Part shown: in pieces, positions 6,305-64,000 of the stretch | How the letters are laid out: the number at the start of each line of letters is the position of its first letter | Position numbering within the stretch: position 1 is the stretch's first letter | DNA from: Jaapia argillacea MUCL 33604 | Lineage: Eukaryota; Basidiomycota; Agaricomycetes; Jaapiales; Jaapiaceae | NCBI GenBank assembly: GCA_000697665.1 | Contig: KL197727.1 | Coordinates: 310,001-374,000, forward strand | DNA length: 64,000 nt | Reading direction: 5' to 3' | Program-made: the position numbers and the translations under genes | The notes under the pieces: model-generated | What the model saw: the letters and a program-made list of their open reading frames with translations, nothing else | The model's database searches: none | What the model was told of the DNA's origin: nothing

Positions 6305-9300
6305 ATGAGCACTCCAGAGGCTTCCATGGTGGAGGAAAGGGTCGAGGACCTAGCTGGGTCGAAGAGCATTGTAAAGCGTGCTGTGGACCGTCTTGGCCGC
6401 AGTAAGTCCACGGGAAAGCAACCACCGGCACCACCGAAACCTTCATCAAACGCAAATCCGAGACGCATTTTCAGCTTGAATCGCAAGGGAAAGAGCAAAG
6501 AGGAGGCAAACGGCCAAGATGCTGTGAACAATGATGGTGAGAGTCCCCCCCACACCCGTTGGTGCTCCGACGTCTTAAACACGAGCCGTGGTATTCAGGA
6601 TCAGATTTCTCTCAATCCCTTTCATCCGTCACTGTTCAATCCCCATCAGACGATTCCCCATTTATTAGACCACCTTCCCCTTCTGTCCCCCCTTCAAGAC
6701 CCTCTTTGCAGAGTTTCCGTGGAGAAGGCTCGGTAAGTTCCCTCCACCTGTCTAGTATGCCTGATTCGAGATGGGAAATGTAGATGCGCGCAGGAACCCA
6801 AACACTTATCCAAGCCCTTCAAAGTATCCCTTGGGCTGACGATCAGGATAACGACGACGAAATAGTCAACCATAACATATCTGCGGCTGAGATCGAAAGT
6901 GATGAAGAGGACAAGCCCAGTGAGCACCCATATTCAGCTGACCATCCCATCCACTCATCGTCCCTGAGGCGTCCAATTGTCCTCTTCCTTACACACTATC
7001 CACCGGCCAATGGCGCGATCTCGTCGGGCGGGAACAAATCTCAAGGCCGTGTTTAATGGATCTGATACCTCTGAACCCTCTGACGACGAACAAGAACCAG
7101 ATCAAATTTATACTTCGGAACCAGAAGACACAGACTTCGAAGTAGCTACGCCTCGCATCCCGGACCACACACGCACGACCTCTAATCCAGAAGGACGTAA
7201 TACGATCCCTTCACGGTCCATCCATGGGCGCATGGGATCACATTCAACGGTCATGACTCGTACTGGCAGCATGGCGACTGTTCGCTTGCAGCGTAGGGCT
7301 CGTTTGGCAGACAAGTTGAGGGAAGTCTTTGATTTAGATGGAATCGAAGAGGTTATCTCAGGTATGTTTGTCTTGTCTCCCTTCCTTTTTCTCCCATTAA
7401 ATATCCCATAGAAATGCCCTGCTGGCTTCTACGATCGGTCTGTGAGTACAATGCCTACGCATCATTGCTCTCAGAGTCTCCCAGAGCTGATCTTTCGCAG
7501 TGTTGCAGGGATATATGTATTTAACTAACTCCTACCTCTGCTTCTTCGCCCACATGCCTGCCAGAGAAGTCCGTCCACTTTCCCCCAGACTCATTTCATG
7601 CTAAATAGTGTACAGGATCAAGTCTTGAAGTCTGGTTCCCTGCACAAGAAAGCCCAGCGAACAAAGAGGTGGATCAAACACTGGTTTGTGTTGAAGAATG
7701 ACGTCTTATCCTGGTATCAATCTTCTTCCGTGAGATTGACTTCTATTTTACGTTTGATTTTACCATCTCATACATCCTCACAGGACCCTTACTTCCCACA
7801 TGGTATGGTCGACCTGCGGTATGCAATGTCGTGCGAACACGCGAGCGAGAAAGAGTTCCGTATTAGAACAAACGAGAAGACCATCATTCTCGCGGCTGAC
7901 TCGATACCAAGCCGTGACGAGTGGGTTAAGGCCATACGCAAGGTCATGTTTAAAGCCCAGAACCGGGGTGATAGTGTGAAGGTAGCTTGCTAGGTTTTCC
8001 CATCTGAACCATCAACTCATGACTCGCGTTGAATAGATCGCCATTCCATACTCTGCTATCATTGATGTGGAAAAGTCAGCGGCCATTGATTTCAGCGAAA
8101 CGATAGAAGTCAAGGTCCTTGATAAGGATGAAAACTATGCTGTCGATTCTTACTTTTTCGCCTACTTCCACGAGTTGCCTGTAGCCCTCGACCAGATCCG
8201 CGATGCCGTTCGCAATAATCGCGCGGTTTCTCAGACCTCCTCACCTCTCCCCGTCATGGACACGACAACGCCTCGGGTTTCCACTGCACTTCCAGTTGGC
8301 CCAACCCATCCAACTACTGAACGAGCCCAGACCGTTCCAACCCCAGATACTCCGAGGGCTTCGGCCTTTCGGTTGGCATCTCTTTGGCGCCCATTCCAGG
8401 ATTCTCCACCTATTCATCGTGCTACCAGCGCCCCAACTCCCGAACGTCCCGAGGAGAACGAGGAGTTTACCCACATATCCAAACGAACCTCATTCATACC
8501 CCACACTAGTTCACCTGATGATTTGACACATGCTGAGTCCAGTGATTCCAGCCTTGCTCGTCCCTCGACAGACAACAACACCCCCAAATTGCATCCTTCT
8601 GTTCTGAGTGTCACAGACCACACGTATCCTCCCCAAACCACTCCTGGGTTTTACGATTTGCCATCCAAGGATAGTTCCAGTAGTTCATGGGGTGTGCCGA
8701 CATGGTTGAGGGTGCCCTCACGCAAAGTGTTTACTGCTCCCTTTGGCAGTTCGTCAACCACAGAGCATGGTAGTACCGTACCCATTGCTTCTGTCACGGA
8801 GATTTATTCTACAAACGAGTCTCCAACCAGCAGTAACCAGAGTGGGGAAACTGGCTTCAGCGTTCTGGATGTTCCCGATGCAACAATTGACGCTGCAATA
8901 ACTGCCAAATTTCGCGCTGCTTTTGCTTTGGATGACAAGGAGGTTCTGCTTGGGTGTATGCTATGAATATCTTTTAATTATCTTTCGCTTATCTTACTGG
9001 CATTCTCCAGACTTCCCAGGTTACATATATCGCCTCCTTCCTGTATACGGACGCCTCTACATTTCGACCAATTTCTTCTGTTTCAAGTCCAGTGGTCCAT
9101 TAGCCTCGAGGACCCGTGTACGTATCATCCATATCTCGGGATGCTGTCTTTTGTTCACTTGATTTGCAGATGATGCTGCCTATACGTGATGTTCTGGCCA
9201 CTGAGAAATCCAAGGCTTTCCATTTCGGGCACTTTGGGCTGGTTATCATTGTAAAGGGCCACGAGGAGCTTTTCTTTGAGTTTGGCCTCGAAGAGCGCAG

Positions 9301-44919: not shown

Positions 44920-47423
44920 ATGGAGATCCTTGGCGATTTGAGAATTCTACATCTACTCTGCTTAGGCGGAGGTACGTGTTTTCGAGCCCTCTCAAAAATT
45001 TGTCGCTCATCTCTCATAGTATACGTCCTGTACAAACTCCTCCACCAACTCTTCCTCTGGCCGTATCTCCTCTCCCCTCATAGGAAGATACCCGGCCCAC
45101 CTCTCCGTGACCCCTTCCTAGGCGTCTTCCCAGAAATAATGCACGCAGAAGCTGGGATATTACAGAGACAATGGGTCAAACAATACGGACCTGTTGTTAG
45201 AGCCGTCGGACCATTTGGGGTTGAGAGGATCATATTTATGAAGCCGGAAGCGTTGCACAGGATCTTGATTAGTGATTGGTTGGAATATCCAAGAGTATGT
45301 GGTGTCAGATTTATCTGTCAATAATATGCTCATGTGTGGCTTGGTAGCCGGATTTTATGAGGAACATCTTGGGAGTGGTAGCTGGGTATGGATTGCTGAC
45401 AGTCACGGGGAATGAACACAAGCAGATGAGAAAGGTGATGAATCCTGCGTTCTCGATTCCAAATCTAATGGCCCGTAAGCCCTTTCCTCGTTTGTGTGGT
45501 TGAATATTGTCAACCCAATGGACATTAGAAACTGACATGTACTACGACTCGATCGAGAGGTTCGTAGTCGCACATTTAAAAGTTTGGACTACTTTGACCC
45601 GACCGTCAGTTTGGTCGATATACTGTCGAGTGCCACAAATGCTCAGCAAGATCCATCTCAAGGAAAAGAATTCTTGATGTACGAATGGAGTACGTTCCCC
45701 TTTGATATTGAAGTCATCCAACATATTGAAATTACATTCTTCCCAGTGAGTAAAGTAACACTTGACATCATCTGCGAAACTGCTTTCGGATACAAAACCA
45801 ATTCTCTTCGAGACCCTCATAACGAACTCGCCGAGGCATACGAGCACTTGATTGGTCTCCAGAGTGGTGAGCTCGTTCATGGGCTTGTTTTCAGTTGACT
45901 GCTCACATCTTGTAGGTCCCAACATTGCCAGGTTCATTGGTTTGATGTCGATACCCGGAGCTCCTTTCCTCTTTCGTTCTCAATGGGCCTACGACCACCG
46001 CCATTGGTTCTTCAAATCCTCACTGCTCGGTAGGTCTACATTCCACTATAATCAATCGCCCCTGACTTCACGGTCTACTCAGCCCCGGCAGCCACGACGA
46101 TAGAGTCGATGTACCGCATCAAGTCCATCTCTCAACGCATACTGACTGAAAGGCTATCTGAAGCTCAATCGTCTGCTGTAAACCTCGAGCACGACATGCA
46201 AGCCAAGAAGGATATTATGTCGTTGCTTGTCCGGGCTCGGTTGGCTGGTGACCAGGCGAATAAAGGTAGCGGTGTTAAGGGGTACAGGATGAGTGATGGT
46301 GCTGTCATGGATCAGGTGGTGAGTTGTCGACCTTGGATGGGGTTAAATTCTGATCTTATTGAAACGATTGCATCAACCTTCTTTAGTTAACGTTTCTTGG
46401 GGCAGGACATGAAACGACAGCATCTGGTGAAGAGGTTAATCTCGTCAGGTTAATCTCGTGCTGACAAATAGACTCTTTCCTCTCGCACGATATCTTGCAT
46501 TTGCAGGACTTGCTTGGGTATGGGGTATCTGCTTCGTTAGTTAGCCTCTCGAGGTCTCAAACCCCTGATATCAGACTCTCTGGCTCCTCGCGAACGATCC
46601 GCAATCTCAACGTAAACTCCGAGCCGAGGTCACTCCACTCCTCGATGCAAATCCAAGGCCGAGCTATAGGGAATTGAAGGATCTGCAATGGTTGGATTGT
46701 GTCGTGTATGCCCTCCTGTTCATCTTCCCTCAGGATGTTTTCACCAATCTTCTTTGGGCTTGATAGGTTGGAGAGCTTGCGCTTGATGCCACCTGTCCCG
46801 ATGACACTACGCAAGGCAGCCAAGACGGGGACTATCGACGGAGTTTCAGTGTCGAAAGGCACTATTCTATACATTCCGGTCAGTCAGCCATGCATTCGTC
46901 GTCGGGTTTCTTGTGTTGAGAAAACTCTGGCAGATTCGGGTTGTCAATACGTGGAAAGAAATCTGGGGTGACGACGCTGAGGAGTACGTGCCCGCCTGTT
47001 CTCTACCTTTAACATCAATTAATACCCCTCACTGAAGGTTTAATCCCGCCCGTTGGCACAGCCTACCAAACACCTACCATCCCACGTACTCCATGTTGTC
47101 CTTCATAGCCGGTCCACATGCATGCATCGGGAAGACCATGGCTATTATCGAGATGAAATCTGTTCTGGCGTACGTATTTTATCATTCCCCTGGGTCTCAG
47201 CTTGCTTACGGTTACGCCTTTTGCTTCTTCTAGACTACTCGTAGCGAACTTCGAGTTTGAGCCCTCGTTCCCTGGACAAATCGTCAAGCCCACGGCAGCG
47301 GTCACCATGAGTGCGCCCTTTTGTTAGGTTGAATCATTCAAGCTTTGCTGAACAGTTGTTTCATTTTCTGCAGAGCCCGCGGATAGTATGCCTTTGCGCG
47401 TCAAACTCGTAGATAGAATGTAG
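44920..47423 (+). CDS. Cytochrome P450 monooxygenase (microsomal, fungal)
   Basis: Heme monooxygenase of unknown substrate. The ATG at 44920 opens MEILGDLRILHLLCLGG, spliced to VYVLYKLLHQLFLWPYLL (N-terminal anchor), then the Pro-rich hinge KIPGPPLRDPFLG. Later landmarks are WLEYPR...LLTVTGNEHKQMRKVMNPAF (C helix), VTLDIICETAFGYKTNSL, the I-helix GAGHETTASGLAWTLWLLAN (oxygen-binding Thr pair), the K-helix ESLRLMPPVP (ExxR), NPARW, and the heme loop FIAGPHACIGKTMA with the Cys ligand and His where Arg is commoner. The gene has about 12 short introns; two at the I-helix (from 46415 and about 46520) must be removed to see the frame. The last exon ends RVKLVDRM, TAG at 47421-47423. It appears intact, about 520 residues. 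Its 3' end is the left end of the tandem duplication. Confidence 0.92.
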
Positions 47424-47672
47424 TGGGGACCGTATGAGCCGCGAGTGTGAAGCACGTTTGATTGGGTATCAGATTCCCCTTGTACTTCAACAATCTATAA
47501 TATATTAGATCGTAACCAAGCCTCACGGTATATGAATGAGGAACGAGGGGCCTATCCTTGTGCTCAGTGGTGTCCATTCGAGGTTCGGCAATATCCGCGA
47601 TACCCCCGTACCCGCGACCTGAACGAAACCCCCATCTCTCTCAAGCGCCTTCCGTTACTTCCGTCCACTATT

Positions 47673-47800
47673 GTCCCCTCACGGGTGACATACGAAAACT
47701 TGGAACGATACAGAGAAGATTAGCATGGCCCCTGCACAAGGATGACACGCTTCTCCAGAGTGGAAGACCTACGGGTCCCAAAATTTATGCCAAAGTTTTT
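47673..47800 (+). ncRNA. U6 spliceosomal snRNA (probably functional copy)
   Basis: U6 is the catalytic snRNA of the spliceosome and is made by Pol III. The 5' end carries a GTCCCCTCACGGGTGACATA hairpin-like start. The invariant core follows: ACAGAGA box (47710-47716), then AGATTAGCATGGCCCCTGC, ACAAGGATGACACGC (AGC triad and internal stem-loop). The 3' end is uncertain; a GACC-TACG-GGTC hairpin at about 47766-47777 and a T5 run at 47796-47800 are the likely terminator. No TATA box is visible near -25. A GTTCGAGG at 47897-47904 is a weak downstream B-box candidate. The exact 5' end is inferred by comparison with remembered fungal U6. Confidence 0.92.
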
Positions 47801-48820
47801 GAACTCATTTCGCAGCCATGACTTTGAACGGAAGAACTTCGAAGTTTATCAGGTAAGTTCCAGTACATGTGCCCGTTACGGTATGGTTCCACTGTCGTTC
47901 GAGGTGGGAGAGCAGTGTCTAACCCTCTTCCAAAGTTCCAAAGCGCCGGTTGCGGGAGATGGCGACGTCCCCTGACGACTTCCCCTACTTTGGAACTTGA
48001 ATCGAGGATTGACCTCACGCTTGGTTGGTATGACTTTTCGGTTGTCGAGACCCGTTTCGAGGTACGCCGCGGGCCCTTCAGATGCCAAATAGCCAACGAC
48101 CTTGTCCTCCATTGAACATCTCCTTTACTTCCACTTCCACGTTCAACTCAGTACGGCGAACTATCAAGAACGCATACTTCGGGAGCGCGGTTGCCAAGGC
48201 ATCATCCCTTCAATGTATGTTAGGCAAATGGGATGATCGTAGCCTCGCGGATTTGCGTAACTCGCAAGTTCGCACAACTCCGAGTCTATCGCTCCCAACA
48301 GGGCGAATTGCAAGTTCCCCCTTCAAGTTTCCCTTCCAGAGGAGGATTAATAACAGATACCAACCCTTTCCGTTCGAATGCTGATCATTTCCCTACGAAG
48401 ATCTAGGCAACACTTCCTCATCGCACATCAGCGAAGCACACAAGGTTCTCACCTCAGCCGATCCACTCCCATCCAACCCCTTGTCCCTCCTTCATCCACA
48501 AGAATTCTGCAGCGCCCAACGTTCCGCACTAGGAAATCTGTGGCGGTGCCGTCCATACAAAGTCAAATATCACCCTTATGTTAAAAATGGACTAGCGATG
48601 GGATTTGATGCAGTGTTCTGGAATCGCTACTGAAGTATAAGGATATGACGAAAAGACCGTCGTCGCTTCTCATCGTCTATCCCTTGAACAAAGATGTCTT
48701 TGCATAGTGGGGGTTGCGCCCACAAAGACTCAAGTCCTATAACTTTGGAACTCAGGGTGAAGCCACGATAATTTCCGGTATCGCTCTCTACCACCTCTCA
48801 CACTCCCTTGCCCTCCAAAA
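47801..48820. other. non-coding stretch between U6 and the first secreted-protein gene
   Basis: About 1 kb with no recognised gene. It aligns in order with the stretch after the second U6, so it predates the duplication. Open frames on either strand are not conserved between the copies, which argues against coding. Confidence 0.6.
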
Positions 48821-49493
48821 ATGCTCTCGCGATTCTGTCTTTACCCCCTCCTTTCCTTTCTCACCCGTACGTCCCCACAGATCCTGTTTTCAAAGACCTT
48901 GGTTTCTAATCCCCCTTACCCAGTCAATCTTTTCGTAGCTGCTTCGCCCATCTCGGATCAATGGGACTCTCTTCGTCATCTCGATAAAATCGACCAAGAA
49001 ACGAGGGATTGGCATTGGAATAGGTTGTATCCAAGGAGATGTATGACGGCGTGTAGGCTTGTTGATTATGTGAGTGCATCACAGGCAGGTTCAAGTTGAA
49101 TTCCATTCACTTTTCGCTGACTCCCCACCCCAACCCCTTCTCAATCTCATCTTTGCACAACAGCCGACGGCCACTGCTACTACTACGGGAGTAACGACAC
49201 CTAGTACACTCTTGGATGAAGCCCCGACTCCTACCCCCACTGTTTCCGAGCAGGTGACTACTACAACTAAAGCGCCTTCTTCAGGCTCAGGCTTGATTAC
49301 ATATTCGCCGACTGGGACTATCAAAGCTGCAGCGGCGAGTTCACCGTCTTTGGTGACACCTACCTCTAGTGTTGCTACTAGTACTACCAACGTAGGAAAA
49401 AGCAGCGCGTCGATGGTAACTTATGTCGTTTCTCATGAGGTGACTGCGTTGAGTATTGGAATGGTCGTCACCTTGCTCGTTCTAGTTCTCTAA
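48821..49493 (+). CDS. small secreted, probably GPI-anchored Ser/Thr-rich protein, copy A
   Basis: Three exons (48821-48866, 48924-49069, 49164-49493) encode 173 residues; I do not recognise a family. The N-terminus MLSRFCLYPLLSFLTLNLFV is a signal peptide. A conserved block follows: SPISDQWDSLRHLDKID, then TRDWHWNRLYPRRCMTACRL with two Cys. Exon 3 is a Thr/Ser/Pro-rich stalk (TPTPTVSEQVTTTTK) likely to be O-glycosylated, ending in a hydrophobic tail (ALSIGMVVTLLVLVL) after small residues, as in a GPI-attachment signal. A paralogue with the same exon plan lies at 51614. A cell-surface wall or plasma membrane location is inferred. Confidence 0.8.
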
Positions 49494-49543
49494 TCGTCAT
49501 CGTTGTTGTCGATGCGATCTTCTCTTACCATTTTTGTTTTACT

Positions 49544-49680
49544 GGGGGTTCAGTATGCCTGATCGTAGCCCTCTCTACCTTTGATCTTTGTTCCATTTCG
49601 TCTGACCTTTTTTTCCCGGGGGTTCCGTAGGTCTGAGCATAGCCCCCTGCACCTTCAATCTTCGTTCCAATCGGTCCACC
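49544..49680. repeat. 74-base direct repeat, two diverged copies
   Basis: Two copies with a 74-base period begin with a GGGGGTTC element at 49544 and 49618 and share gatcgtagcc/gagcatagcc and the atctttgttcc/atcttcgttcc segments. The matching 3' UTR of the second secreted-protein gene has only one copy (about 52285). This points to a local duplication after, or a loss in, one unit. Confidence 0.7.
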
Positions 49681-49692
49681 CTTTGTGTTATT

Positions 49693-49740
49693 CCCTGTTA
49701 TTTATTTCCCCTGTTATTTATTTCCCCTGTTATTTATTTC
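49693..49740. repeat. 16-base minisatellite, three perfect copies
   Basis: The unit ccctgttatttatttc is repeated exactly three times in the 3' flank of secreted-protein gene A. It is absent from the corresponding flank of gene B. Confidence 0.95.
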
Positions 49741-50033
49741 CTATCGTTATCAAATTTTGTATCGTCAACCTTTGTCTTTCATGCCTGGTGCGTTATATCG
49801 CAGTAGAGTGACTTTCATGTATCGTTCAGCGATGAATTTAGATGGTACCTTTCTCGAGTTTCAATTTGGGGGCGTTGGTCCAAAGCTGTTTGGTGGTGGG
49901 GGCCGGGAAATATTCATACACGGGCAGTACTAGTTACATGCAATGGGTATATCTCGTCGGTACTCCCTTTGGATAGGAAGGACAACCTGAGGTGATGAGG
50001 CTCCTCGATCCGCGAGGAAGGATATGATCAAGC

Positions 50034-50260
50034 CTACGCAACTACATAACGAACGCGTATCAGAACTTGAGTGACTTTTCAACCTGCAAAACGACATGCC
50101 CACCTTGCCAGTCTCAACCTCATAAACCCACCCAGTAACCTTTGTCTCCTCCAACACCAACGGATTCCCCTTCAACCACTTGACATCACCCCTCACCGCC
50201 TCTCTCAACTCACCAAACTCCGAAAAATCAATCTTGTCAATCGTTTCTGGATCAACCTTT
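50034..50260 (-). pseudogene. truncated beta-carbonic anhydrase 3' fragment
   Basis: The minus-strand translation KVDPETIDKIDF, then VKWLKGNPLVLEETKVTG and WVYEVETGK, is nearly identical to the C-terminal third of the complete gene at 52658-53274. The part with the zinc ligands is absent because the duplication junction at 50260/50261 cuts the gene. The last short exon has also lost bases (about ten) relative to the intact copy. It has no start codon or promoter of its own and is presumably inert. Confidence 0.88.
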
Positions 50261-50380
50261 GCAGGGGTCACCATAAGTGCGCCCTTTTACAATCTTGAAT
50301 CGTTCAAGTTTGTTGACAATTTTTTTGCAGAACCCGCCGATAGCATGCCTTTGCGCGTCAACCTCGTAGATAGAGCGTAG
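50261..50380 (+). pseudogene. cytochrome P450 3' fragment (last intron and exon)
   Basis: Contains the end of the penultimate coding exon (GTCACCATA), the last intron and the last exon read as PADSMPLRVNLVDRA then TAG. It matches the intact P450 ending PADSMPLRVKLVDRM. It has no upstream gene body: the sequence to its left is the carbonic anhydrase fragment. It is a passenger of the tandem duplication. Confidence 0.88.
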
Positions 50381-50621
50381 TGGGGATCGTATGAGCGGCG
50401 AGTGTGAAGCATAACTATTTGGGTGTCGGATTTTCCCTTGTACTTCAACAATGTATAATATATTGGATCCTAACCAAGCCTCATGGTACATGAGAGAGGA
50501 ACGAGGGGCCCATCCTTGTGCTCAGTGGTGTCAATCCAAGGCTCGGCGAAATCCGGGATACCCATACCTGAACGAATCTCTCATCTCTCTCAAGCGCCTT
50601 CCCTGACTTCCGTCTACTGTT

Positions 50622-50751
50622 GTCCCCTCACGGGTGACATACGAAAACATTGGAACGATGCAGAGAAGATTAGCATGGCCCCTGCACAAGGATGACACGC
50701 TGTTTCAGAGTGGAAAGACCTACGGGTCCCAAAATTTATGCCGAACCTTTT
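50622..50751 (+). pseudogene. second U6 snRNA copy, probably non-functional
   Basis: Same hairpin start and core as the first copy, AGATTAGCATGGCCCCTGC and ACAAGGATGACACGC being unchanged. The ACAGAGA box, which pairs with the 5' splice site and is nearly invariant in eukaryotes, reads GCAGAGA here (A to G at 50660). There is also an extra A before TTGGAACG. The downstream T run is four instead of five, and about 120 bases of 3' flank present in the other unit are missing. Function cannot be excluded, but the changed box argues against it. Confidence 0.75.
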
Positions 50752-51613
50752 GAACTCATTTCATTCTCCTCCAAAGCACCTGTTGCGGGAGACGGCGACG
50801 TCCCTGATGACTTCCGCTCGCGATGATATGTGGCCTCACTCTTGGTTCTGGTGTGACTTTTCGGTCGTTGAGACCCATTTTCGAGGTGCGTCGCGGGTTC
50901 CCATGTCGAATAGTCAGTCAACAACCTTGTCCTCCAGAGCAGATGTTCCAGTTCCACGTTCAGCCTGGCAACTATCTCAAGTGACGCACTGTTGCCAAGG
51001 TACCATCTCTTCAAATGGATGGTCGTAGCCTCGTGGGATTCACAAAGTATATCACTGGCACTTTGCGTAACCTCGCAAGTTTGCACACTCGGTCGCGCTA
51101 AATAGGGCGTCTTGCTTCTCCTTCTCCCTTCCAGAGGAGGAATAACGGAAATTAGTGTTTCCATTCAAGTGTTGACTTCCCTCTGAAGATCTAGGCAAAA
51201 CCGCACATCAACGAAGCACACAAGGTTCCCACCAGAGGTGAGACCTCAGTTGACCCACTCCTATCCAGTCCCTTGTCCCTTCTTCGGACACAAATCTTGC
51301 AGCGCCCATTCATCACACCCGTAAATTCCGCACTAGGCAATCAGTGGCGGTGCCGTCCATACAAAGTCAAAATCACCCTTATGTTGGAAATGGAATGCGA
51401 GCAATGGAATTTGATGCGGCGTTCCGGAATCATTATCGAAGTATAAGGATACCAGTCGTCGCATCTCGTTGCCTATCCCGTGAATAAAGATGCCTTTGAC
51501 TAGTGGGGAAGCGCCCATAAGGACCAAGTCCTATAACTTTGTATGGTGAAGCTACGACGATCGACTATATACTTTCTGCTATCCCTCCCTACCATCCGTC
51601 ACCTTCCCTTGAA
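50752..51613. other. non-coding stretch between second U6 and second secreted-protein gene
   Basis: About 860 bases corresponding to 47801-48820, with a deletion of about 120 bases near its start. No gene is recognised. Confidence 0.6.
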
Positions 51614-52255
51614 ATGCTCTCGCGACACAATCTTTACCCCCTCCTTCTATTCCTCCTCACCCGTAAGTCCCCCCCCCCCAATCCGTTTTTCCAAAACCCT
51701 TGTTTCTAAACGCCCTTTTGCTCCTCCTTTACCCAGTCAATCTTTTCGTAACAGCTTCGCCCATCTCGGATCAATGGGACTCTCTTCGTCATCTCGATAA
51801 AATCGACGGACAAACGAGGGATTGGTATTGGAATAGGGTGTATCGGCGGAGATGTATGGTAGCGTGTATGTTTGTTGATCATGTCAGTACCATCCATTCA
51901 CGCCTTTTCTTCTGCTTCTTCGTCTCATGTTGTTTTCATACAGTCTACCACCACGGCCACTACGGAAGTAGTTGTATCAACGAAATCTGTAGCCTTGGAT
52001 GAAGCCCCGACTCCTGTTCCCACTGTTTCCGGGGAGACGACCACCACATCAGGCTCAAGTTCATCTTCGCCAACTGGTACTCTTAAATCTGAAGCGACGA
52101 GTTTACTCTCGTCGTCTTCGACGGTGGTGGTGACACCTACCTCTGGTGTTACCAACGCGGGACAAACCAGCGCGTCGTTGGGTACCCATGTCGTTTCAGG
52201 CCAGGTGGCTGCGTTGAGTGTTGTGATGTTCACCTTCTTCGTTCTTGCTCTCTAA
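51614..52255 (+). CDS. small secreted, probably GPI-anchored Ser/Thr-rich protein, copy B
   Basis: Paralogue of the gene at 48821 with the same three-exon plan (51614-51662, 51737-51882, 51944-52255), 168 residues. The signal peptide is MLSRHNLYPLLLFLLTLNLF. The block SPISDQWDSLRHLDKID is identical to copy A and is followed by RDWYWNRVYRRRCMVACMFV with the same two Cys. The Thr/Ser stalk (APTPVPTVSGETTTTSG) has diverged freely in sequence and length. The hydrophobic end (VAALSVVMFTFFVLAL) keeps the GPI-signal layout. Exon 2 is 146 bases in both copies. Intron 1 has a C run (about 51669-51679). Both copies look expressible; no function is known to me. Confidence 0.8.
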
Positions 52256-52657
52256 TCGTTCTTGCCGTCGACACGATATTTTCTTACCGGGGGTTCCGTA
52301 GGTCAATCGTACCTCCTCCACGTTTAATATTTATTCCTTTGTCGTTGTACATTCCTTCCTTCCTGGTTTCCCTCGTATAGTCATCTATGACACGGCTTCG
52401 GTATCGTTATCAACTTTGTATCGTTAACTTTTGTCTTTGATGCCTGGTGCGTTATGTAGTAGTAGAGACTTTCCGTGTATTGTTAAGCGATGAATTCAGA
52501 TGGTACTGTTCTCCGGGTTCATTGTAGAGCGTTGGTCAAGGAGATATGGTGGTTCAGACGAGGGGTCGGGAAATATTCATCCACGCGCATGTTACATGGG
52601 TATATCTCGTCTGTAGTGATGGCTCCTCGACCCCAGAGGGAACGATACTGATCGAAC
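52256..52657. other. intergenic: 3' flanks of secreted-protein gene B and carbonic anhydrase
   Basis: About 400 bases between convergent genes. It corresponds to 49494-50033 in the left unit and lacks the 16-base and second 74-base repeats found there. Confidence 0.55.
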
Positions 52658-53274
52658 CTACGCAACCTGTCGCACCTACATAACCGAGGTGTATCAACAC
52701 TCGACTTTTCAACCCCCAAAGCGACAGGCTCACCTTGCCAGTCTCAACCTCATAAACCCACCCGGTAACCTTGGTCTCCTCCAACACCAACGGGTTCTCC
52801 TTCAACCACTTGACATCACTCTTCACGGCCTCTTCCAAATCGCCAAACTCCAAAAAATCAATCTTGTCAATCGTTTCCGGATCGACCTTCGTTTGCGATT
52901 TGAGGATGGAGTGGAGGTGTTGTGAGGAGAAAGTAAGCATGCCGCAATCTGTATGGTGGAATAGTGCGATTTCACGTGTGCCGAGGAGGCGTTGGGAGAT
53001 TATTAGGGAGCGGAGAGCGTCTTTCGCTGCTCCGCCTGCGTTGCGGATGATGTGGGCGTCGCCTTCTTGGAGACCCAGGTGGGCTGCTGGGTCGATACGG
53101 GCGTCCATGCATGTCACTGCAATCCAAATCAGCTCAGTATCATACGATCGTTTTAGGGGGAGAGGGGAGGGTACCGATTGCTAGTTTCTTGGCTGGGGGA
53201 GCTTTGAGGTGACCCTTGGTAAACCCTTGTGCATACTTGTCGCTGGCTTGTACGAAATCGGTGTGGGCAGACAT
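52658..53274 (-). CDS. Beta-class carbonic anhydrase
   Basis: Interconverts CO2 and bicarbonate. The ATG at 53274 opens MSAHTDFVQASDKYAQGFTK, then KAPPAKKLAIG; after an intron the next exon starts VTCMDARIDPAAHLGLQEGD. Zinc ligands and the Asp/Arg dyad are visible: Cys-x-Asp-x-Arg in CMDAR, and His with Cys in HHTDCGM. IIRNAGGAAKDALRSLIISQ is the usual substrate-pocket strand. The protein ends TGWVYEVETGK and, after a last intron, VRQVA with TAG at 52658-52660. About 165 residues, the short fungal form without a mitochondrial leader. Its 3' part is duplicated at 50034-50260. Confidence 0.93.
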
Positions 53275-57509: not shown

Positions 57510-60245
<2,736 letters not shown>

Positions 60246-61733
60246 GATGGGTGAAGGGAGGCTGAAGGCGTTGTGGCCCGAGTCTGAAAATCAATGAAAG
60301 CTTGACGCGACCTGTCACGCGATTTGACCTGCCCTAAACGATTGTCACACCAGCCCTCCATCACACCAGGCCTCTCCGCCACTCGGAAACATCCACTCCC
60401 TCTAACTTACCACTGGCGGTATCTAAGAGCCAACCACCCCTTGGACATATCTGCTCCCAAATTCTCCGTCGATTATTTCATTCTGCCACTGCCCCTTCCA
60501 GGCCATCCCTCAGAGTATTGTCAGCCAACGTCTCCGTGTATCCATCGCTGAAGCACAATGCTTCATGACACATCGTCCTGGACGATATGCATCCTATGCT
60601 GGCCCACAGAGGCTAAATTACTTCATGTCATGCACACATTCCCGACCGGGCAACTATGTTTCCTCCTCCGACCGGGTTCTGCTTCTCAGAGGCTTGGCGG
60701 AGTAATCATATCTCCGATTTTTTCGCATTCCATGCAACCGCCCTAGGTACGCCCTTTTCACGGTGTATGTACTTATGGCAAACTTATGGCGGAATCGAGC
60801 CGCAATCTCCATCTCGTCAACAGTCGGGATTTACTTTGTTCTGGGCCTCGCCCTTCACCCTTCTGCCAGCACTCATCTCATCGACCTTTCACAACAGCCG
60901 ACTGCATGACGCACGCATGTTGCCGACAACGTGAACAATTCGAAGCATTTCCCACCATCGTGTGCCATCACTCACACAGCAAATTGAACTTGTGATTTCG
61001 GTACCTGGAATGTACCTGTCATCGATGACAAGGATCCACCAGAGTTCCGTATCCCTATGCGGCTGGCCTTGGCAAAGGCCCACCAGTTTCTGACCCGCCC
61101 TTTCCAGAAATGCCAGTCATCCGCTGCATACTCAACGACAGAATCCCGACCCAATGCGAAAATTGGAACCTGATGGGGCATCAATTTACAGCAGGGTTAC
61201 GCATTCCGAGTGGTGAATAAACCACCGATGCTGGTCGAGATCGTTCGGCTGCATTCACCGTTCCAACCGGTCCTACCGCGTGCGCCGTTTTGTGAATCCG
61301 AGTGAAGACGAGGGAACAGTTGACCAAGTACTTGCTGGGGTCACAAGCAACAGTTACACGGATATGACTATTCACTGGTGGTACACAGGGCGCTATGCTG
61401 AAGATCTAACCGCTTCTCTCTTCAAAGAATCACCAGCGAGATACACATTAGCTAGTACACCTGCAGAATATGATGAAATAAGGAAACTTCGAGAGCCAAC
61501 AAAGAATGAGCGTATAAGTGGGTGAAAACAATGATTCCAGGAAAGGTCTGTCCGCGTAAACGCAGATAGTGGAGACGAGAAACTGTTGGATATGTAGGGT
61601 GGGGTAACTTTTGAGTCGAGGAAGGGAGCGGGGTTCAAAGGAGGCGATGGGTAGTATTTTGGTCGGCTGGGGGGGTCGAAGGAGGTGTCAGCGAAACGGT
61701 CGCGAAGGGGGAGGCGAATCTGACTCACATCGG
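60246..61733. other. gene-poor stretch upstream of MCM3
   Basis: About 1.5 kb. The MCM3 promoter lies at its left end. None of the open frames shows a known family, repeat structure or consistent splicing, and no transposon ends or RNA gene were recognised. Confidence 0.5.
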
Positions 61734-61957
61734 TTACCAATCCTTGCCACCTACTCCTCTTTCCCAATCTTTGTCTGCTCCTCTCTTCCAATCTTTCCCA
61801 CTAACGCCCCTCTCATCTAAGCTTGTGTCCGCCGTCTAAGTGGCAACGTCAGAAAAGGTAAAATAAGGAGATCGAGAGGGTAGCTTACGGGCAAAGCAGA
61901 AGCCACGGAAACCAAGAGCAATAGAACGGCTGCAAGGTACGGTCGGAGGAGCATCAT
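61734..61957 (-). CDS. putative secreted repeat-peptide precursor (three KDW-ending repeats)
   Basis: Two exons (61889-61957 and 61734-61835) joined by a 53-base intron with good ends (GTAAGC...ACTTAG) give 56 residues. Exon 1 is exactly a signal peptide, MMLLRPYLAAVLLLLVSVAS-ALP. Exon 2 reads TADTSLDE, then three units each starting after a basic residue and ending Lys-Asp-Trp: R|GVSGKDW, KR|GADKDW, ER|GVGGKDW, and TAA (61734-61736) right after the last Trp. The intron falls between signal and repeats in phase 0. This is the layout of Kex2-cleaved secreted peptides (alpha-factor-like, KEP/RiPP precursors); release of six- or seven-residue peptides is inferred. A TATA-like TTATATT lies about 55 bases upstream of the ATG. 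The gene is very short, so chance is not excluded. Confidence 0.55.
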
Positions 61958-64000
61958 CTGGGTTCTAGCGAAGATCGACTGGCGAAAAAGAACGACGAAG
62001 GTCAGGCAATATAAGAGCCGAAGTGGAGGGGATGAGAAACTGTGGAACCACTCAGGTCCGTAAGCACACCCGTGCCGTTGGGGCCGCAGCCAACCTGGCG
62101 TTCCTGGATGATGCGAAGTATAATTATGGCATATCGACAACCGCTCGGTTTCTATCTCACCGATCGCTTGCGGACTCAATCATGCATATTTGGAACGTTT
62201 GGTACCACGTACATGACACTGATGCAACTACTGTCGGCTTGACCTACTCAACGGACGCTGAGGGGCCAGCTATTTTTGACTCCAGAACCTTGGAAACCCC
62301 CGGTCGCAAACACGCGAGCATCGAAATTGCCCGCCAGGATTTCAACGAACGACCCACTGTCAACCTCGTTCCTTTTGTCGTGACGGACAACGATCTCGTA
62401 TGTTGGCGCCGAGTTCACAATGAGTGAAATACAAATTGTACCAACGATTTAACTCAGAGTTGACTACCTGGCTGTGCACGATCTACCCGAATTTCCAATT
62501 CAATCAGAAGCGTCCAAAACACGCATGGCCGCCACCGCGTCATACTTTAGCGCCATGCGTTTCGGAAGGAGCCACTGGGTGCAGTTGCGTCGTTGTAGGC
62601 GTCTCGCTAAGGGGGTGGGTGCACTCTGGCGGATGCTCCCCTCGCACCCAATGGCTCTCACTCGATGTCAGAATCGGGGCCCGAAGCTGAATATCGCCGA
62701 GACTTTGCCGAGCAAACCTCCTGTTGAGGAGCGTCAATGGATGGTAGAATACATACAGGGTGTACTGAAACCGACCAGAGGCCAAGGAGGTCAATGAGAC
62801 CAGTGAAACCGGTAGCTGAACCTCGCACAAGACTCCCAATTCCATTGGTACCGAGCAGGCCGGTCCCTGGGAATGCATATGAATCGGTCGTCTCACTGTC
62901 AAGAATCCTGAGTCCCCGCCAGTTTGAGAATGCAGGGCACGCCGAAGGCAAGGGCCTGGCAGACAGGATGATCTGCTCGATCAGAGAAGGTGTTTGCCAA
63001 ATTCTGCCGTCGGTGACTATCGATAACAAGCACTCATACAACCCTAAACAAGAGAAGAAACTTCCAGAGTTTTATATCAGCATGTCGTCTGATCTGAGTG
63101 TCGGCCGGAGTGGCCAATGATAGCGCTGTCTGTGGCAAGTCCGCAAACACAGACCTAGGTTTCGCCGCTACAAGCGGCACATTGGGTGAAACATCATGAC
63201 CTGGATGTTGTCCCGAAGTATGGACCTTGCTGAAATGTTGAACTCCGAAGGGGATGGACCGGCGATGTCTACGCCGCGGTGGGTGAGCACTGCGAACACC
63301 CACTGGTATAAGAATAGCAAGGTGGCTTACGTTGAGAACAGGATGACCAGCCGAGATAAGTGCTATATTCAGATCCACGAGCAGTCGCTTAAGCGAACTG
63401 GGCTCGTGATATCTCCATGGGTTGGTCAGGGTTGGTCCTATGAAGGTTCCAGGACGAGAATAAAGTCGTTCGTTCCTCATCAGGATTCAACCTGAGTAAG
63501 ATCAGAATTCAAGAGAAAAGGAAGACTTTAGGGTTGCAGCGAGACATCACCGTTGGGGTTCGAATGAGGAAGAAGGTATGGGACAGTGCCGAGACGTGAG
63601 CGTGCCCGCTCCGATGTTGGAAGGGCACGACACAATCAGACTACCGGTTCAAGGACACTGGGGATGCGGTAACTGGTCAACGCAAGGATTTCCGCGGATG
63701 GTATGTCCCTCCGATGCGCCGCGAAAGAGCAGCCCTGATACTCAGGAGGGCACTGGGTCACATAGCAGACGCAGACATAGCCCTCCTACTTTATTTTTGT
63801 GCTTGACGACAGTACTTGTAGGCGTACGAAGCACATTTGTCTGGCAATCTTCAATAGTAGGTGGTGCTGACTGGGTGGACTCACTTCCCATATTGGGAGA
63901 AGCAGTGTGAATTCCTCAATCACTGAAGGTAAATCAGGACGCGCATCAAGGTGATTAACTCGGCACCTTAGGAAGCCGACATGGTGAATGCGCTGGACTA
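61958..64000. other. gene-poor stretch to the right edge
   Basis: About 2 kb in which I recognise no gene. Frames of about 100-135 codons occur on both strands (for example 62023-62427 and 62737-63120), but opposite strands are equally open, they show no motif, and flanking splice sites do not extend them. A distant part of a gene beyond the window cannot be ruled out. Confidence 0.45.

Follow-up and report, generated by a model that had tools for sequence, protein, structure and literature searches.

A predicted KEP-like precursor with three Asp-Trp-ending repeats, encoded by a small, probably spliced gene of Jaapia argillacea

Introduction

Short secreted peptides that end in Asp-Trp have been described from several basidiomycetes. 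A conserved XSDW repeat motif was found by Le Marquer et al. in the KEX2-processed repeat proteins (KEPs) of an ectomycorrhizal species and of saprotrophic species (PMC6339444). Vogt et al. used mass spectrometry to confirm two such peptides in fruiting bodies, one from shiitake (SGTGEASAADW) and one from two species of Pleurotus (SGVAADW), and reported that six Coprinopsis kep knockouts had no phenotype (PMC9769878). The same paper reports that production of Coprinopsis KEPs in P. pastoris yielded peptides cut after a single Arg. The Laccaria protein MiSSP8 carries a C-terminal repetitive DW[K/R]R together with a kexin site, and a review describes a proposed role for it in the aggregation of hyphae and the formation of the Hartig net (PMC10106355). 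Knockdown of MiSSP8 strongly impairs mycorrhization, as stated by Umemura (PMC7329392). Qsp1 of Cryptococcus is a different fungal peptide that ends in Trp. Its maturation takes place outside the cell, through the cell-wall protease Pqp1, and Opt1 then brings it back in (PMC7537855).

Here we examine a stretch of 64,000 nucleotides from Jaapia argillacea MUCL 33604 (contig KL197727.1, positions 310,001 to 374,000), referred to below as the window. A first-pass annotation had proposed that a small gene near one end of it encodes an undescribed secreted peptide system. Since -DW-ending KEP repeats of basidiomycetes are already published (PMC6339444, PMC9769878, PMC10106355), the precursor belongs to a known kind and is not a new system. 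Its place is that of an added, very small precursor among the basidiomycete -DW peptides, a group in which MiSSP8 is of importance for root symbiosis.

Results and discussion

A small, probably spliced gene on the minus strand

Re-translation of the window reproduced the proposed gene model, including the exon coordinates, the phase 0 join and the reading of the repeats, and places the gene on the minus strand, which the first-pass annotation had left out (Table 1). The spliced exons encode a 56-aa protein, MMLLRPYLAAVLLLLVSVASALP-TADTSLDER-GVSGKDW-KR-GADKDW-ER-GVGGKDW-stop, and the signal peptide and three Trp-ending repeats claimed for it are present in this spliced translation. Hydropathy within the signal peptide peaks at 3.13 over LAAVLLLLVSV, and the -3,-1 rule (rather than SignalP) predicts a likely signal-peptidase cut after ASA. 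By these two measures the protein begins with an N-terminal signal peptide, as KEPs in the broad sense do. Unspliced read-through leads to another C-terminus (a 120-aa open frame, 62179-61817), and the acceptor TAG closes the exon 2 frame directly upstream, so that the repeats are joined to the ATG by splicing only.

Table 1. Coordinates of predicted features of the precursor gene, numbered from the first nucleotide of the window.
Feature	Position	Strand	Description
Possible TATA element	62008..62013	-	TATATT, about 50 nt upstream of the ATG; read from sequence
Exon 1	61889..61957	-	69 nt; encodes MMLLRPYLAAVLLLLVSVASALP, i.e. signal peptide MMLLRPYLAAVLLLLVSVASA plus LP
Intron	61836..61888	-	53 nt, phase 0; GTAAGC donor, CTGAC branch-point-like box, TTAG acceptor; predicted, needed to reach the ATG
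Exon 2	61734..61835	-	102 nt including TAA stop; propeptide TADTSLDER plus three units
Unit 1, GVSGKDW	61788..61808	-	Glu-Arg before; KR after (61787-61782), sole dibasic site
Unit 2, GADKDW	61764..61781	-	Glu-Arg after (61763-61758); XA dipeptide start, a possible STE13 site
Unit 3, GVGGKDW	61737..61757	-	stop codon directly after
Candidate 3'-UTR intron	61667..61728	-	62 nt, GTGAGT...CTGAC...CAG; begins 5 nt past the stop codon; pattern match only

A strict intron pattern (GTRWGY, CTRAC and YAG within 45-75 nt) matched 16 times in the window, compared with 3.3 ± 1.7 times in a set of 20 windows simulated with a second-order Markov model. Two of the matches lie in the 3.2 kb from 60.3 to 63.5 kb, both on the minus strand and both at the precursor gene. 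One is the predicted coding intron, and the other adds a candidate 3'-UTR intron to the first-pass model. A looser scan also returned an 88-nt intron, 61754-61667, whose branch point and acceptor are those of this second match. Its donor (GTAGGT at 61754) lies inside unit 3, and splicing from it to 61667 would remove unit 3 together with the stop codon and create a different C-terminus, in either a minor or the main isoform. We regard such splicing as highly improbable, as the donor is embedded in GVGG codons and may be coincidental, whereas the 62-nt intron past the stop codon has a GTGAGT donor, shares the acceptor and leaves the repeats intact. A scan for bacterial promoters and terminators, a type of scan that does not apply to fungi, found none.

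Repeat units and their boundaries

All three units (3/3) end in Asp-Trp, and GVSGKDW, GADKDW and GVGGKDW provide the at least three similar short repeats that characterize KEPs in the broad sense. The spacers had been described as dibasic or Glu-Arg, of the sort used by Kex2-type proteases. Only one of the three unit boundaries is dibasic (KR); Glu-Arg, found at the remaining two, is monobasic and is not a canonical Kex2 site. The repeats of broad-sense KEPs are split by dibasic kexin sites (KR, RR, KK, RK), and here this is the case at 1/3 boundaries.

Units 1 and 3 differ at 4/7 third codon positions and at 1/14 first or second positions (Fisher two-sided P = 0.025, from a tiny sample), which fits a peptide that is kept while its synonymous sites drift. 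Unit 2 is more divergent, with 1, 2 and 3 changes at codon positions 1, 2 and 3 relative to unit 1, and 0, 2 and 2 relative to unit 3. Because these changes fall at first and second positions too, the pattern is modest evidence for selection within the precursor.

The boundaries allow more than one outcome of processing. Past the signal peptide, KR is the lone dibasic site. If kexin used this site only, the precursor would yield LPTADTSLDERGVSGKDW (shortened to TADTSLDERGVSGKDW should LP be lost) and GADKDWERGVGGKDW, and thus two peptides with a length of 15-18 residues in place of three short ones. KDW would still end both halves, and dibasic sites alone were used in two published KEP searches (PMC6339444 and PMC7329392). 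However, Glu-Arg recurs exactly ahead of units 1 and 3, a placement that suggests use of the Arg, and the single-Arg products obtained from mushroom KEPs in P. pastoris (PMC9769878) also count against a single cut. We therefore consider this outcome unlikely.

Chance expectation and searches for further copies

As a chance model we generated 40 Mb of sequence from a first-order Markov model of the window and searched both strands. The pattern KDW-xR-G...KDW-xR-G...KDW occurred 0 times in this simulated DNA, as did two KDW within 12 codons; three DW spaced up to 12 codons apart occurred 4 times and two DW 252 times. A chance origin of the triple repeat is unlikely, and because the repeat pattern was defined after the sequence had been seen, the simulation serves as a plausibility check and not as a P value. 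The same applies to the intron and signal-peptide tests, which like the repeat test were devised once the pattern had been seen. Under a home-made rule, 8/2194 ATGs in the window had signal-peptide-like starts, compared with 2/2131 in one simulation.

No second place matching the precursor was found in the genome (43.7 Mb, 95 contigs). A DW-[K/E]-[R/S]...DW pattern gave 25 matches in the genome and 11 in a reversed control. When all 25 loci were translated, frames with three DW were found solely in two overlapping matches of the precursor gene itself, and the other 23 contained one or two DW. The nearest look-alike (locus L019, G000:C21) has two DWER in a G-rich, 36-residue stop-to-stop frame, and it was set aside, with no signal peptide in the frames inspected. 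DW followed by two Arg/Ser codons matched 35 times in the genome versus 12 in the control; translation of 20/35 of these loci gave 5 in-frame pairs and 0 triples, while the other 15 are known as matched strings. Three Trp-Lys-Arg units were found 0 times in the genome (6 in the control), and a narrower DWKR pair with G/A/S/C/W/R-like codons ahead of DW was found in neither (0 and 0). Patterns of this kind do not cross introns or cover all spacings, and thus other KEPs may exist in this genome.

A query built from the published -AADW cores, run without a positive control, also gave 0 matches in the genome. A scan of viral contigs, a collection not expected to contain fungi, returned 297 pattern stretches, of which 0 were confirmed as relatives. 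By title, none of the papers among the literature matches listed concerned the window peptide; these matches are a partial set that misses PMC6339444 with its XSDW motif.

These results bear on whether the locus is instead an open frame that arose by chance or has decayed, leaving a remnant or a spurious pair of exons without a product. The gene is very short, it has no second copy and lacks Pfam matches up to E = 1, its model derives from sequence alone, and the pattern was chosen after the fact out of much sequence. Against this, neither triple nor double KDW repeats arose in the 40 Mb simulation, and two canonical intron-like elements lie at the gene with none elsewhere in the surrounding 3.2 kb. 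The signal peptide is intact and the differences between units 1 and 3 are biased toward synonymous sites. We judge a chance or decayed frame to be very unlikely, and a real gene at 61957-61734 very likely.

Processing enzymes in the genome

Exon-level matches to the STE3 pheromone receptor number 62 in the genome, mostly in clusters on two contigs (C50 and C47 of G000) and with a few below the curated cut-off, and the class II peroxidase extension domain has 1 match. Together these matches point to a mushroom-type basidiomycete. The organism possesses the kexin gene that the kexin pathway calls for (G000:C5); it combines the Pfam domains Peptidase_S8 and P_proprotein, and its best PDB match is Kexin (E = 5.6e-101). 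A P_proprotein search found one P-domain gene in the genome, while the number of KEX2 genes given for agaricomycetes is three (PMC9769878). Next to the kexin gene, at 7143-7736 (-) of locus L039 (G000:C5:1480000-1488000), there is an opposite-strand frame that, judged by eye, resembles an MCM helicase.

The genome also contains one DPPIV_N gene (E = 8.2e-70). It may be STE13-like, in a family that includes dipeptidyl peptidases other than STE13. Searches for UstYa (DUF3328) and for the STE2 receptor each gave 0 matches in the genome, and since the control genomes were equally silent, the absence of either is not established by these searches.

Comparison with known -DW peptides and KEPs

The comparison with KEPs made in the first-pass annotation is sound as to type, in that the gene has the anatomy of a small secreted precursor with three repeats and belongs to a genome with a kexin. 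Two published definitions are stricter. Umemura (2020) asked for three or more tandem repeats, each 8 or more residues long and bounded by dibasic sites (PMC7329392), and the units here have 7, 6 and 7 residues with one dibasic site. Le Marquer et al. (2019) required in-silico cutting at KR/RR or KK to yield four fragments or more (PMC6339444), and the one KR here gives two. The precursor, which differs from the published -DW KEPs in its Lys before Asp-Trp, its very short units and its one dibasic plus two Glu-Arg boundaries, falls outside both definitions, and we therefore place the predicted protein among KEP-like variants rather than among KEPs in the strict sense. What remains of interest is this mostly monobasic layout, which the criteria of the two surveys pass over. 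With its 56 residues, two exons, short units and Glu-Arg boundaries, such a precursor lies outside their reach, so surveys of this kind may undercount peptides like these.

At the level of motif, the precursor resembles the -AADW KEPs, in which a secreted precursor also holds short repeats at kexin sites with cores ending in Asp-Trp (PMC9769878). In the descriptions given there, however, Ala-Ala precedes DW where the window gene has Lys, and the window gene has 2/3 Glu-Arg boundaries. Lentinula edodes KEP 2599 has 7 repeats of SGTGEASAADW compared with 3 units here, and the SGVAADW precursors of Pleurotus ostreatus and P. eryngii (KEP 1091723 and 1439342) have a STE13 spacer, of which the window gene has no clear example. 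The XSDW KEPs have Ser-Asp-Trp in place of Lys-Asp-Trp (PMC6339444). Laccaria bicolor MiSSP8, as reviewed in PMC10106355, is likewise a secreted precursor with a kexin site. In place of its repeated DW[K/R]R, the window gene has one DWKR, a second junction that reads DWER, and one terminal DW; the role of MiSSP8 in ectomycorrhiza rests on silencing in Laccaria. Dikaritin RiPPs need a Tyr in the core for cyclisation (PMC7329392), and there is no Tyr in the three units.

Resemblance to other fungal peptides is looser. The layout is like that of ascomycete alpha-pheromone precursors, with a signal peptide, a propeptide, repeats, kexin sites and possible STE13 dipeptides. Alpha-pheromone cores are not present in the window precursor. 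The mating pheromones of basidiomycetes are a-type (PMC9769878). The first-pass annotation had also invoked Qsp1, and this likeness holds insofar as both are short secreted peptides ending in Trp, but the C-terminal Trp is its sole basis. Qsp1 is not known to have a -DW core. The passages on Qsp1 in PMC7537855 describe no repeat precursor.

Proposed product and processing

Our best explanation, to which we assign a probability of about 0.72, is that the gene encodes a secreted, kexin-cut, KEP-like basidiomycete pre-propeptide from a small spliced gene. Gene anatomy, repeats, kexin gene and DPPIV-family gene are the directly shown parts of this explanation; transcription, splicing, processing, secretion and function are what we infer. 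Signal peptidase would take off the signal peptide after ASA, and Golgi kexin would cut after KR; it would probably also cut, with lower efficiency, after both Glu-Arg sites. A KEX1-type carboxypeptidase would then trim the exposed Lys/Arg, and a STE13-type peptidase may take off XA/XP dipeptides, namely the GA of unit 2 and the LP-TA of the propeptide. This would release short linear peptides with Asp-Trp at the end, namely GVSGKDW and GVGGKDW from units 1 and 3, together with GADKDW, GADKDWE or DKDW from unit 2. By analogy with the mushroom -DW peptides, these would most likely act outside the cell, in signalling or interaction.

Several findings weigh against this explanation. Only 1/3 boundaries is dibasic. 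Cutting after Glu-Arg followed by trimming of Arg would leave unit 2 with its Glu (GADKDWE), breaking the rule that all units end in Trp unless it is trimmed further. Others are the lack of a second match to the precursor in the genome, the empty -AADW query (run without a positive control), the first- and second-position changes in unit 2, and the single P-domain gene, compared with the three KEX2 genes attributed to agaricomycetes.

More speculatively, and in our view unlikely, the combination of a single dibasic site with two Glu-Arg sites might itself be the feature of a lineage-specific KDW signal. The precursor would then give graded products, long by default and short when single-Arg cutting is active, for communication between hyphae or with a host. 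Should this hold, a class of 'monobasic KEPs' that fail both published criteria could be hidden in mushroom genomes.

Surroundings of the gene

The gene-poor setting noted in the first-pass annotation is borne out by the tested frames, with the precursor gene lying in a stretch without Pfam matches between an MCM helicase gene and a WD40 frame. Pfam at E up to 1 gave 0 matches for the precursor and for five nearby open frames (61393-61800, 61969-62427, 62728-63120, 63034-63486 and 63500-63910). The MCM helicase gene lies on one side (open frames 58776-60290). Beyond the window, the nearest match among the frames tested is the WD40 protein (L037:1084-1911).

Elsewhere in the window, positions 47295-52889 form a tandem segmental duplication with a spacing of 2.6-3.0 kb, comprising 16 repeat families at 75-96% identity. 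Each copy contains a U6 snRNA gene (47673-47787 and 50622-50727). The open frame 52554-53180 matches carbonic anhydrase, and a shorter frame, 49930-50286, has a 187-nt repeat in common with it at 90% identity.
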